Below are positions 13,062-64,000 of a DNA stretch of 64,000 nt, in pieces (within the stretch, counting starts at the first letter, position 1; each line of letters begins with the position of its first letter). The notes under the pieces are model-generated. The model did no database searches. It had not been told where the DNA came from and saw nothing but the letters and a program-made list of their open reading frames with translations. The position numbers and the translations under genes are program-made. Where the stretch lies: the NCBI GenBank assembly GCA_014859095.1, contig JACUUV010000002.1:94376-158375 (forward strand), written 5' to 3'. The DNA is from Clostridia bacterium. Its GTDB lineage: Bacteria > Bacillota > Clostridia > Peptostreptococcales > Acidaminobacteraceae.

Positions 13062-13097
13062 AAAAATAAGAACTTGCGAAAGCAAGTTCTTATTTTT
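13062..13097 (+). terminator. Rho-independent terminator after speB
   Basis: aaaaataagaacttgc-gaaa-gcaagttcttattttt, perfect 16-bp stem. Confidence 0.9.
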
Positions 13098-45697: not shown

Positions 45698-45739
45698 GCT
45701 GAGACGCTAATAAGTTTCCTTCGGAAACTTAACTACGCG
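45698..45739 (+). repeat. REP-like palindromic element, copy 1
   Basis: gctgagacgctaataagtttccttcggaaacttaactacgcg; same sequence at 57707-57747 and inverted at 63604-63646. Confidence 0.9.
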
Positions 45740-45801
45740 CTTGCTTAAGAGATAAAAAATAGAATGCCCAAAGGCATTCTATTTTTTATCTCTTAAGCAA
45801 G
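45740..45801 (-). terminator. 29-bp perfect inverted repeat, 4-nt loop, spanning the stop codon and coding end of the SpoU gene
   Basis: cttgcttaagagataaaaaatagaatgcc-caaa-ggcattctattttttatctcttaagcaag. Confidence 0.9.
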
Positions 45802-46655
45802 CCTTTACGTTTCAAGGTTGCCTCATATAAAATTACGGTTGCAGCGATGCCGACATTAAGCGAGTCACAATCGCCGAACATCGGTATCTTAACCGCTTGA
45901 TATGGAAGCGTATACCATTCTCTGGATATGCCATGACGTTCACTGCCCATGATTATGGCGATATTGCCTGAATAATCTTCTTCAAAATAATCCACAGCGC
46001 CATCGGTATCCGTCAAAATGATTTTAAAATGGTGTTTGATCAACCATTTGGAGACGTTCTCAAACTCATCTTCCACTATAGGAATCTTAAAGCATGATCC
46101 CTGAGAGCTCCTTATGAATTTTGGATGGGTCAATCTGGTCTTTCGGTTGCAAATCACAATCAAGTCCACATCTGTTCCATCAGCCGATCTTGTGATGGTA
46201 CCCACATTTCCCGGGATTTCCAGACCATCCATGATCATGACCAAATTGGTCTTCTTCGGCTTGTAATCTTCAAGTGCTGTCTTTGGAAAGTAACACAGCG
46301 TAATCATACCTGCCGGGTTGCCGCTTTCCGACACCTGTTCCATGGTTTTTTTCGAAATCAGGTAAACATCTGGCGCCAGTGCTATGAGCTTCTCCAACAT
46401 ATGATACGCTTCCGGGGTCACTATGGACTCGACCGCCACCAGGAGGTATTCTATCTTGAGGTTATACCCTATCACAAACTGGTTGGCCCATATGCCTTCC
46501 ACTGGAATCAACTGCTTGGTGTTGCTTTTTTTGTTGTTGTTGATTTGATCCACACGTTTGACCATGGGAGATTTCGACCCTGCAAAATGAACTTTGTTGG
46601 GATTGTTGGCTTTGATCCATTTTTCCTTTTCCTCAACTTCCAGTTTTAGAAACAT
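45786..46655 (-). CDS. TrmH/SpoU-family RNA 2'-O-methyltransferase
   Basis: PGNVGTITRSADGTDVD, IIMGSERHGIS, SLNVGIAATVILYEA. Confidence 0.92.
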   Translation of the reverse strand: MFLKLEVEEKEKWIKANNPNKVHFAGSKSPMVKRVDQINNNKKSNTKQLIPVEGIWANQFVIGYNLKIEYLLVAVESIVTPEAYHMLEKLIALAPDVYLISKKTMEQVSESGNPAGMITLCYFPKTALEDYKPKKTNLVMIMDGLEIPGNVGTITRSADGTDVDLIVICNRKTRLTHPKFIRSSQGSCFKIPIVEDEFENVSKWLIKHHFKIILTDTDGAVDYFEEDYSGNIAIIMGSERHGISREWYTLPYQAVKIPMFGDCDSLNVGIAATVILYEATLKRKGLLKR

Positions 46656-57645: not shown

Positions 57646-57670
57646 TATTGGGATTCCTCCCATAAGGAGA

Positions 57671-57689
57671 GCCAAGAGTGCGAGCACTC
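57671..57689 (+). repeat. duplicate copy of the terminal hairpin sequence gccaagagtgcgagcactc
   Basis: identical 19-nt string at 57751-57769. Confidence 0.9.
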
Positions 57690-57706: not shown

Positions 57707-57747
57707 CCGAGACGCTAATAAGTTTCCTTCGGAAACTTAACTACGCG
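57707..57747 (+). repeat. REP-like palindromic element, copy 2
   Basis: ccgagacgctaataagtttccttcggaaacttaactacgcg. Confidence 0.9.
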
Positions 57748-57777
57748 AAAGCCAAGAGTGCGAGCACTCTTGGCTTT
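57748..57777 (-). terminator. 14-bp perfect hairpin abutting the TAA of the LysO C-terminal gene
   Basis: aaagccaagagtgc-ga-gcactcttggcttt. Confidence 0.85.
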
Positions 57778-62083: not shown

Positions 62084-63559
62084 TTGAACTTGAAACCCAA
62101 CCTCAAATTCATTTGGCTTTTGGCTTTGGCACTGCTTTTGGGTGGTTGTCAGTCCACGTACAAATCAGCACCGGCTCCTGAAATTTATCTTACAGATGTC
62201 AAAGAGATGGTATATGAACCAGATGTCATCGGTATTCAATCCGTTATCGAAACCTATGATACCTATACATCCGCAATCCATTATCCGGTATTTGGTTACC
62301 AGACTATAGATGCCATAGTATACGACTTCATCCAAAACCGGCATGAATTGTTCCGTCAGGAACTTGCTGAAATCCTCGAGGCAAACGAAAGCAAATGGCC
62401 ACTTGAACTGCATATGGAATACGATATTGTCTACCAGACTCCGCGACATGCGGCGATTTTATTCAAAGAGCGTAAACATCTTGGAAGCGCTCAGGTATCG
62501 GTAAACAGATTCACATTCAATTTCAATTTTGATACGGACAAACAGTTGACACTGGCGGATTTGTTTGAGAACAACGCCAGTTACCTTAAAATCATCTCCG
62601 AGCTCTCATATGAATTGTTGACTGAAGGCGATTTGATTCCCTCGGCAGTGGATATGAACTGGGTAAAAGGCGGCTTGTCTCCTCATGAAAAGAATTACTC
62701 GAACTTCCTGATGCAATCCAATACGCTTGTCCTACTTTTCAACAAATACCAACTCGGTCCCGCATTCATTGGGGCACCATCCATTGAAATCCCATATGAG
62801 AGTCTCAATGCCTATTTGCCGCTCAAAGAAAGTCTTCTCAATAATTTCAATGGTAAAATTTCAAAGTTGACTTCAGATCCAATCCTGTCATTGGATTTGG
62901 AGGCTGATAATCTTGAACCTGCGAGCTCCGAGAAAGCTCCAGAATCGTTTTACAAAAAAAGGATCGCCATCACTTTCGATGACGGACCTCATCCGATTTT
63001 CACGCCAATCATAGTGAATACACTGGGGAGCTACAATGCAAAAGCAACTTTTTTCTTATTGGGCAACCGTATTGCGGATTATCCCGACGTGGCAAAGCAT
63101 TTACTCTCAGAAGGACACATGATCGGCAATCATTCATTCAGCCATCCCCAACTTTCACGGATGTCCACAGAGGAAATATTGAATGAGGTGACCAGAACTC
63201 AAAACATCATTGAAAACGCCACCGATTTCACCCCATTTCTCATGCGTCCACCATTTGGCGCAATCAATGATGTCGTATTGACTACGGCTCAGATGCCTAT
63301 GATTCTTTGGTCCATTGACTCAGAAGATTGGATTTACAAAGATCCGGACTATATAGTAAACTTTGTTCTGGACCATGCGTTTGACGGGGCCATAATACGT
63401 CTCCACGACACTCTTCCCAACACGACACATGCCATAGGTCCAATGGTGGAAGGATTGATCAGCGCAGGATATGAGCTTGTGACTGTGGATAAACTGCTGG
63501 GAATCACCAAGGATTCTGCGGATAAAAATTTAAGGTCATTTTCTAGGGCTTTAAAATAA
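62084..63559 (+). CDS. lipoprotein polysaccharide deacetylase, PdaC-like (DUF4163/DUF3298-like region plus NodB domain)
   Basis: lipobox LLLGGCQS; DTDKQLTLADLF DUF3298-type region; KRIAITFDDGPHPIFTP, GNHSFSHPQLS, FMRPPFGAIN; TTG start. Confidence 0.9.
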   Translation: MNLKPNLKFIWLLALALLLGGCQSTYKSAPAPEIYLTDVKEMVYEPDVIGIQSVIETYDTYTSAIHYPVFGYQTIDAIVYDFIQNRHELFRQELAEILEANESKWPLELHMEYDIVYQTPRHAAILFKERKHLGSAQVSVNRFTFNFNFDTDKQLTLADLFENNASYLKIISELSYELLTEGDLIPSAVDMNWVKGGLSPHEKNYSNFLMQSNTLVLLFNKYQLGPAFIGAPSIEIPYESLNAYLPLKESLLNNFNGKISKLTSDPILSLDLEADNLEPASSEKAPESFYKKRIAITFDDGPHPIFTPIIVNTLGSYNAKATFFLLGNRIADYPDVAKHLLSEGHMIGNHSFSHPQLSRMSTEEILNEVTRTQNIIENATDFTPFLMRPPFGAINDVVLTTAQMPMILWSIDSEDWIYKDPDYIVNFVLDHAFDGAIIRLHDTLPNTTHAIGPMVEGLISAGYELVTVDKLLGITKDSADKNLRSFSRALK

Positions 63560-63603
63560 GGTTACAATATTTGCGCAAAGCGCAAATATTGTAACCTTAT
63601 TTT
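63553..63603 (+). terminator. 24-bp perfect hairpin (AAA loop) spanning the stop codon of the deacetylase gene
   Basis: aaaataaggttacaatatttgcgc-aaa-gcgcaaatattgtaaccttatttt. Confidence 0.9.
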
Positions 63604-63646
63604 ACGCGTAGTTAAGTTTCCGAAGGAAACTTATTAGCGACTCAGC
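63604..63646 (-). repeat. REP-like palindromic element, copy 3 (inverted orientation)
   Basis: acgcgtagttaagtttccgaaggaaacttattagcgactcagc = reverse complement of copies 1 and 2 with one change. Confidence 0.9.
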
Positions 63647-63977
63647 TAATATTTACAGATGCTATTGAAGCGAAACTATACTAGCCTCTATGTATCTATG
63701 TTTCACATATTTACAGTTCATTTATTTTGCTGAGACGTAGTTATGTTTCTTATACTCTATTGAACATAGAAACATAGGCTCCTGTGTTTGCTGGGCTAGG
63801 CTAGTATAGTTTCGCTTCGCGAGAACCATACCTACGCCCAATGTTTCGTTTCACAAAACATTGCAAGTCGCCCAATATTTGCGCAAAGCGCAAATATTGT
63901 ACCTACGCGAATAATTAAAAGAAGGGGACCACAGCGAAGCTGTAAATGGTTCTTACGCAACATCTCGAAATATAAAA
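63640..63977. repeat. hairpin-dense mosaic between inverted copies 3 and 4
   Basis: 20-bp perfect IR gaagcgaaactatactagcc (63667-63686) / ggctagtatagtttcgcttc (63799-63818); caatgttt/aaacattg (839-846/856-863); caatatttgcgcaaagcgcaaatattg (63873-63899); recurring TACGC tags. Confidence 0.85.
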
Positions 63978-64000
63978 CTGAGACGCTAATAAGTTTCCTT
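63978..64000 (+). repeat. REP-like palindromic element, copy 4 (cut by window end)
   Basis: ctgagacgctaataagtttcctt = first part of copies 1 and 2. Confidence 0.88.

Follow-up and report, generated by a model that had tools for sequence, protein, structure and literature searches.

The window that we analyzed, 64,000 nucleotides of contig C48 (C48:94376-158375), contains copies of a short palindromic repeat. Almost all copies of this repeat start precisely at the base on which another hairpin ends. We lean towards the view that these copies belong to a family of non-autonomous, REP-like mobile palindromes, which attach precisely to the 3′ foot of hairpins, in most cases terminators, and that the joining is accompanied by fold-back rewriting of these hairpins. 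The pattern suggests a small mobile element that would target terminator hairpins and perhaps help to rebuild them.

The inner palindrome of the repeat, AAGTTTCC-NNN-GGAAACTT, is found at positions 45712, 57720 and 63614 of the window, where dinucleotide shuffling gives an expectation of 0.01; the repeat is real and its count is beyond chance. The cores of these copies are located at 45705..45739 on the minus strand (copy 1, reading CGCGTAGTTAAGTTTCCGAAGGAAACTTATTAGCG on that strand), 57713..57747 on the minus strand (copy 2) and 63605..63639 on the plus strand (copy 3). A fourth copy, at 63978..64000 on the minus strand, is partial because C48 ends there. Strands are given in the H|CGCGTAG orientation, in which the hairpin comes first and CGCGTAG follows. 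Three full copies and a truncated fourth had been reported in an earlier note on this DNA, and all of them were recovered. The family core can be written as CGCGTAG(G/T)TAAGTTTCC-GAA-GGAAACTTA(T/C)TAGCG; its GTAG, its 9-bp inner stem and its CG/CG bounds are as that note had described them. The GTAG lies at the foot of the 9-bp stem, is enclosed by three CGC/GCG pairs and is partly paired in the consensus fold, which was built from 20 copies and has 15 pairs with bulges. No compensatory changes were found in the conserved stem of this 20-copy consensus, so that the stem is defined by sequence conservation and not by covariation. Downstream of the core there is a TCTCAG followed by 20-60 variable nucleotides, which brings the element to about 60-100 nt, and with DNA parameters the element is strongly folded. 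The orientation and the CGCG start are constant across copies. In the window's genome (G000) 25 places lie within 2 mismatches of the palindrome, and the Rfam 15 covariance models gave nothing in the window at the gathering threshold, with only weak matches to unrelated families in 63540-64000. The suggestion that this is a new, dispersed family is thus supported: the repeat is multicopy, dispersed and REP-like in build, and we found no published name for it.

The family is specific to one genus of Bacillota. It is present in three genomes of the genus, with about 25 copies in the window's genome; two sister species (G001, which has the most, and G002) carry about 30 copies each. Copies at contig ends are incomplete. 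The search also covered the fourth genome of the genus (G003) and 57 further genomes of the family and order, and the repeat was absent from all of them. When 85,462 species were scanned, with a list from which the window's own genome was possibly left out, the only matches were in contigs of 'Clostridiales bacterium isolate SMBSF52' and 'Bacillota bacterium isolate LH_M70', which by the match positions are G001 and G002. G000, G001 and G002 are also the only genomes with a clear excess of the GCGTAG(G/T)TA foot. All these genomes are drafts; G001 and G002 are metagenome-assembled genomes (MAGs), and as G002 is 77% complete, the absence of a gene there means little.

The dominant feature of copies 1, 2 and 3, which their earlier description missed, is that each abuts a perfect hairpin, with stems of 30, 13 and 25 bp, respectively. 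The 30-bp-stem hairpin (45739..45802) shares one base with copy 1, and its outer arm takes in the last codons and the stop of a minus-strand open reading frame (ORF), 45786-46655. Copy 2 is abutted by the terminator-like hairpin AAAGCCAAGAGTGCGAGCACTCTTGGCTTT (57748..57777), and copy 3 by a hairpin at 63552..63604 that covers the last codons of ORF 62084-63559 and has a CAATATTTGCGC hairpin inside it. Among 84 unique copies from the three genomes, nearly every one has a hairpin directly before CGCGTAG, at an offset of zero. About one third of these (27 of 84) are preceded by a conserved AT-rich hairpin of the type ATTTTTTGC-GAA-GCAAAAAAT. In the remaining 57 copies, a perfect stem of at least 10 bp ends at offset 0 in 40 (median 18.5, maximum 33), a single mismatch interrupts a long stem in a further 8, and among the last 9 are second units of tandem arrays, arms with an apparent one-base indel and one hairpin with a larger loop. 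Outside the AT-rich class, the abutting hairpin differs by locus and is usually the terminator of the preceding gene.

Could these hairpins simply be the form that terminators take in this genus? In a 400-kb sample such a stem ends at 4.4e-4 of positions, a null that is based on position and holds no model of terminator biology; the fairer comparison is given by counts per 400 kb, where perfect stems of at least 12 bp number 25 in the window's genome, repeat copies included, and 15 in the repeat-free sister species. Perfect stems are therefore rare, the abutting hairpins are not simply how terminators look in the genus, and we rejected the idea that all its terminators are perfect palindromes. 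Perfect terminators are also found without the element, which means that the perfection of a palindrome does not require it.

The copies lie downstream of genes in a fixed orientation. Of the 48 copies tested, 42 have a sense reading frame that ends near the hairpin. The stop codon typically lies where the hairpin starts (median −1, with values from −27 to +85), and in 28 of the 48 copies the frame stops within the hairpin, often only one base into it. Beyond the element, part of the abutting hairpin is frequently repeated: at least 12 nt of the copy's own hairpin, comprising the loop-proximal part and the 3′ arm, recur there in 23 of 46 copies, and the other half of the tested copies lack such a 12-nt duplication. 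When hairpins and downstream regions were mismatched, 2.6% of pairs reached 12 nt; orthologs, and loci with a recurrent terminator in common, are counted in this percentage. The duplicate, which resembles a target-site duplication, often ends at the same base as the hairpin. On the far side of copy 2 (locus L015), for example, a 20-nt direct repeat of the hairpin 3′ half lies at 57670..57689 on the minus strand. At several loci (L007, L026, L062, L071, L083 and L089) copies form tandem arrays by way of such a repeat of the hairpin half.

The earlier note had proposed that syntenic loci be compared for presence and absence of the repeat, and this comparison revealed element-free orthologous sites in the sister species. 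L117 in G002, the ortholog of L027, carries AAAGCCAAGAGTGCGAGCACTCTTGGCTTT without the element, and terminators are likewise present at the empty sites L116 and L118 of G001, which correspond to L012 and L013. The G003 ortholog of L014 has an ordinary terminator downstream of the stop. Where the element is found in both species, the hairpin arms differ yet stay complementary, including arms that overlap coding sequence: a single covarying pair distinguishes L007 from L069, several distinguish L026 from L057, and in L025/L073 it is the outer pairs, at the codon end, that covary. In L031/L097 and L032/L051 a whole inner or outer stem is swapped, in the last case with one mismatch. All of the evidence comes from comparing draft assemblies, of which two or more are MAGs, and the covariation of the arms could also reflect selection for terminator function.

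Signs of hairpin exchange are found within the window as well. The earlier note had described copies 3 and 4 as bounding an interior of about 340 bp, like a BIME or MITE. A composite does exist here, at 63605..63909, which starts with CGCGTAGTTA and ends with TACCTACGCG, but only its left end is the palindrome; its right end is a different hairpin, CAATATTTGCGC-AAA-GCGCAAATATTG, at 63873..63901. All 29 nt of the latter recur unchanged in the inner part of the hairpin at 63552-63604, about 300 bp away, and the G002 ortholog of the 63552-63604 hairpin has another inner stem within the same outer stem, so that inner hairpins appear to be exchanged locally, perhaps via a shared GTTAC. Similar composites, of the form hairpin-1|CGCGTAG ... 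CTACGCG|hairpin-2 with a different hairpin at each end, are found between convergent genes, for example at L072, L073, L092, L097 and L151.

A mechanism that would fit the exact abutment, the gene-end context, the empty orthologous sites, the half duplication, the arm covariation and the hairpin swaps, all of which can be read directly from the sequences, is the following. The element would join the exact 3′ foot of a hairpin, mostly the intrinsic terminator of the preceding gene, and the target may be a terminator hairpin extruded in single-stranded DNA, on the lagging strand or as a cruciform. A staggered insertion in such a palindrome would leave the 3′ half of the hairpin duplicated on the far side. 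Once in place, the element's own hairpin may stall the polymerase right after the terminator, and through this stall the nascent 3′ arm would fold back and be rewritten from the 5′ arm. Such rewriting would make the terminator palindrome perfect up to the junction, let it run into codons and let neighboring hairpins swap their inner parts. That template switching perfects quasipalindromes is established in E. coli (PMC7202029). This process resembles what we propose for the terminator arms in that fold-back synthesis perfects imperfect inverted repeats; it differs in being a mutational process and not an element, and in our case it would operate beside an element that had inserted. For the joining enzyme, the leading candidate is a Y1/HUH tyrosine transposase of the RAYT group encoded in the genome. 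We put forward a stronger version only tentatively and think that it may well prove wrong: that the element targets the three-dimensional foot of the terminator hairpin and not a sequence, that its insertion duplicates the 3′ half and drives rebuilding into a perfect palindrome reaching into codons, and that terminators in this genus are continually rewritten, with their inner stems exchanged. If the insertion rule is true, this would be a small mobile element of bacteria that targets structure and settles at the ends of genes, leaving the genes intact. Its copies would then be a natural record of fold-back template switching, in which locus-specific perfect palindromes covary between species and enter codons. 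The birth and rewriting of terminator hairpins, and the use of a terminator hairpin as a target by a RAYT-type enzyme, would become directly testable. PMC8266576 calls the mechanism of REP dissemination poorly understood.

Another question that is raised by the build of the repeat is whether it is an ordinary GTAG REP mobilized by a resident RAYT, with the abutment explained by the preference for gene 3′ ends that REPs are known to have, a reading that we find rather doubtful. As described in PMC3733652 and PMC8266576, the GTAG REPs and REPtrons with RAYT (TnpA_REP) share with our repeat a palindrome that is short and bulged, with a GTAG at one foot of its main stem (here followed by 9 bp) and a 3-nt loop, an intergenic location at gene 3′ ends (REPs lie close to ORF 3′ ends according to Di Nocera 2013, PMC3733652) and an arrangement in pairs and clusters. 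RAYT-like genes are available too: PF01797 proteins are encoded in all four genus genomes, and of the six in the window's genome three match NCBIfam REP_Tyr_transpos below its cut-off. None of the six is on C48, which agrees with the earlier statement that the window has no RAYT gene. A check proposed at that time, for RAYT genes flanked by the palindrome, yielded one partial case. Directly upstream of RAYT L003 (263 aa) there is the 3′ half of a copy, and the contig starts inside this copy (L003:1-170, at the start of G000:C100). None of the RAYT loci examined had a complete copy, and apart from L003 no copy was detected at any of them. In G001, the orthologous RAYT (L124) has the same downstream gene, presumably nitroreductase-like judging from its sequence, and is without a palindrome copy upstream. 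The terminal repeat that flanks RAYT genes, where visible (L003, L124 and L125), is GGGGACAGGT: L124 lies between inverted copies of it that fit GGGGWSAS, and L003 has one downstream. This repeat occurs within about 100 nt of 11 of 28 copies with the AT-rich hairpin versus 0 of 56 others (a split of 28/56 and not 27/57, as one more copy was assigned to the AT-rich class). Against the REP reading, the GTAG of our repeat is internal, within CGC/GCG pairs, the RAYT loci here carry another repeat family, and our repeat is missing from G003 even though RAYT-like genes are present there. Moreover, passages of the REP papers make no mention of abutment at offset 0 to a locus-specific perfect hairpin or of a duplicated hairpin 3′ half. 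In Di Nocera 2013 (PMC3733652), whose main text does not contain the words Firmicutes or Clostridi-, RAYT-like genes that carry GGGGWSAS terminal repeats are set apart as a kind of their own (TIRYT). The 11 palindrome copies beside such repeats are a likeness to the TIRYT elements of that paper; most copies, including all 56 without the AT-rich hairpin, have none within about 100 nt, and the family as a whole is not bounded by GGGGWSAS repeats as TIRYT mini-elements are. Thus, of the link to RAYT and REP that the earlier note had drawn by inference, the genes and the partial copy stand; with another terminal repeat at the RAYT loci, we do not file the repeat as a RAYT-mobilized GTAG REP, though it is built like one.

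Movement may also need no dedicated enzyme, if replication switches template between hairpins that share microhomology (GTTAC, CGCG), as in mitochondrial mobile hairpins. The local copying of an inner hairpin, the GTTAC that is shared at the junction, the modular merging, the tandem units and the perfected palindromes all speak for it, and the GC clusters of yeast mitochondria merge, shuffle and have putative target duplications (PMC4478555). We consider this unlikely, as copies dispersed over the genome at exactly the foot of hairpins, with duplications of ~20-30 nt, fit insertion better and as the orientation and CGCG start are constant. The GC clusters and double-hairpin elements are likewise short mobile palindromes; unlike them, our repeat is bacterial, lies at gene-end hairpins and duplicates half of its target hairpin versus 2-3 nt. 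Selection as an RNA element, a conserved 3′-UTR structure following terminators that would protect mRNA ends, back up termination or control read-through, would agree with the fixed orientation downstream of genes, the strong fold (with DNA parameters) and the covarying arms of the neighboring hairpins. It is made improbable by the turnover at orthologous loci between sister species, the tandem duplications, the absence from G003, the copies beside a RAYT-type terminal repeat and the conserved stem without compensatory change. Lastly, a retroelement-like copying might be primed at mRNA 3′ ends or at terminator hairpins, by analogy with group IIC introns, which show, according to PMC7161350, that a mobile element can target terminator stem-loops by inserting directly after them (Robart 2007, cited there). 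The repeat holds the same position, its target duplications vary and reverse transcriptase genes are found in G000 and G002. Yet, G001, with the most copies, has no RVT_1 match and G003, with no copies, has one; we rejected mobilization by reverse transcriptase on this distribution, which does not require such an enzyme. An element of ~60-100 nt without an Rfam match is also far too short for such an intron, and we regard retroelement-like copying as very improbable indeed. The repeat family is neither the group IIC introns nor the mitochondrial GC clusters. Non-autonomous insertion at the hairpin foot is the reading that we favor.

Other hairpins were noted in these genomes. A recurrent terminator-like hairpin, CAAGAGTGCNNGCACTCTTG, is found at 5-6 places per genome in G000, G001 and G002, with and without the repeat, and is absent from G003. 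A bare terminator repeat or an uptake signal was rejected as a reading, on this count of 5-6 copies per genome and because 9-mers in 464 kb are led by ordinary AT-rich words. A CGC, a possible scar of the element, follows perfect element-free hairpins at a few places, some of which are the last codon of the neighboring gene. At 13062-13097 of the window, a perfect 16-bp terminator-like hairpin is followed by CGCAAAAC and a second imperfect hairpin, which may be an element remnant or a coincidence. The 8084-bp contig C90 of G000 (L135) begins with the palindrome and ends near an inverted CAATGTTT hairpin; it is possible that this is an 8-kb autonomous element, and assembly breaks at repeats are the simpler reading. 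Finally, GCGTAGGTACTGT / GCGTAGGTAAGAT units with a spacing of 32 nt occur at L136 (G000:C56), L148 (G001:C158) and L161 (G001:C322), and these are possibly a further hairpin module of the same superfamily.
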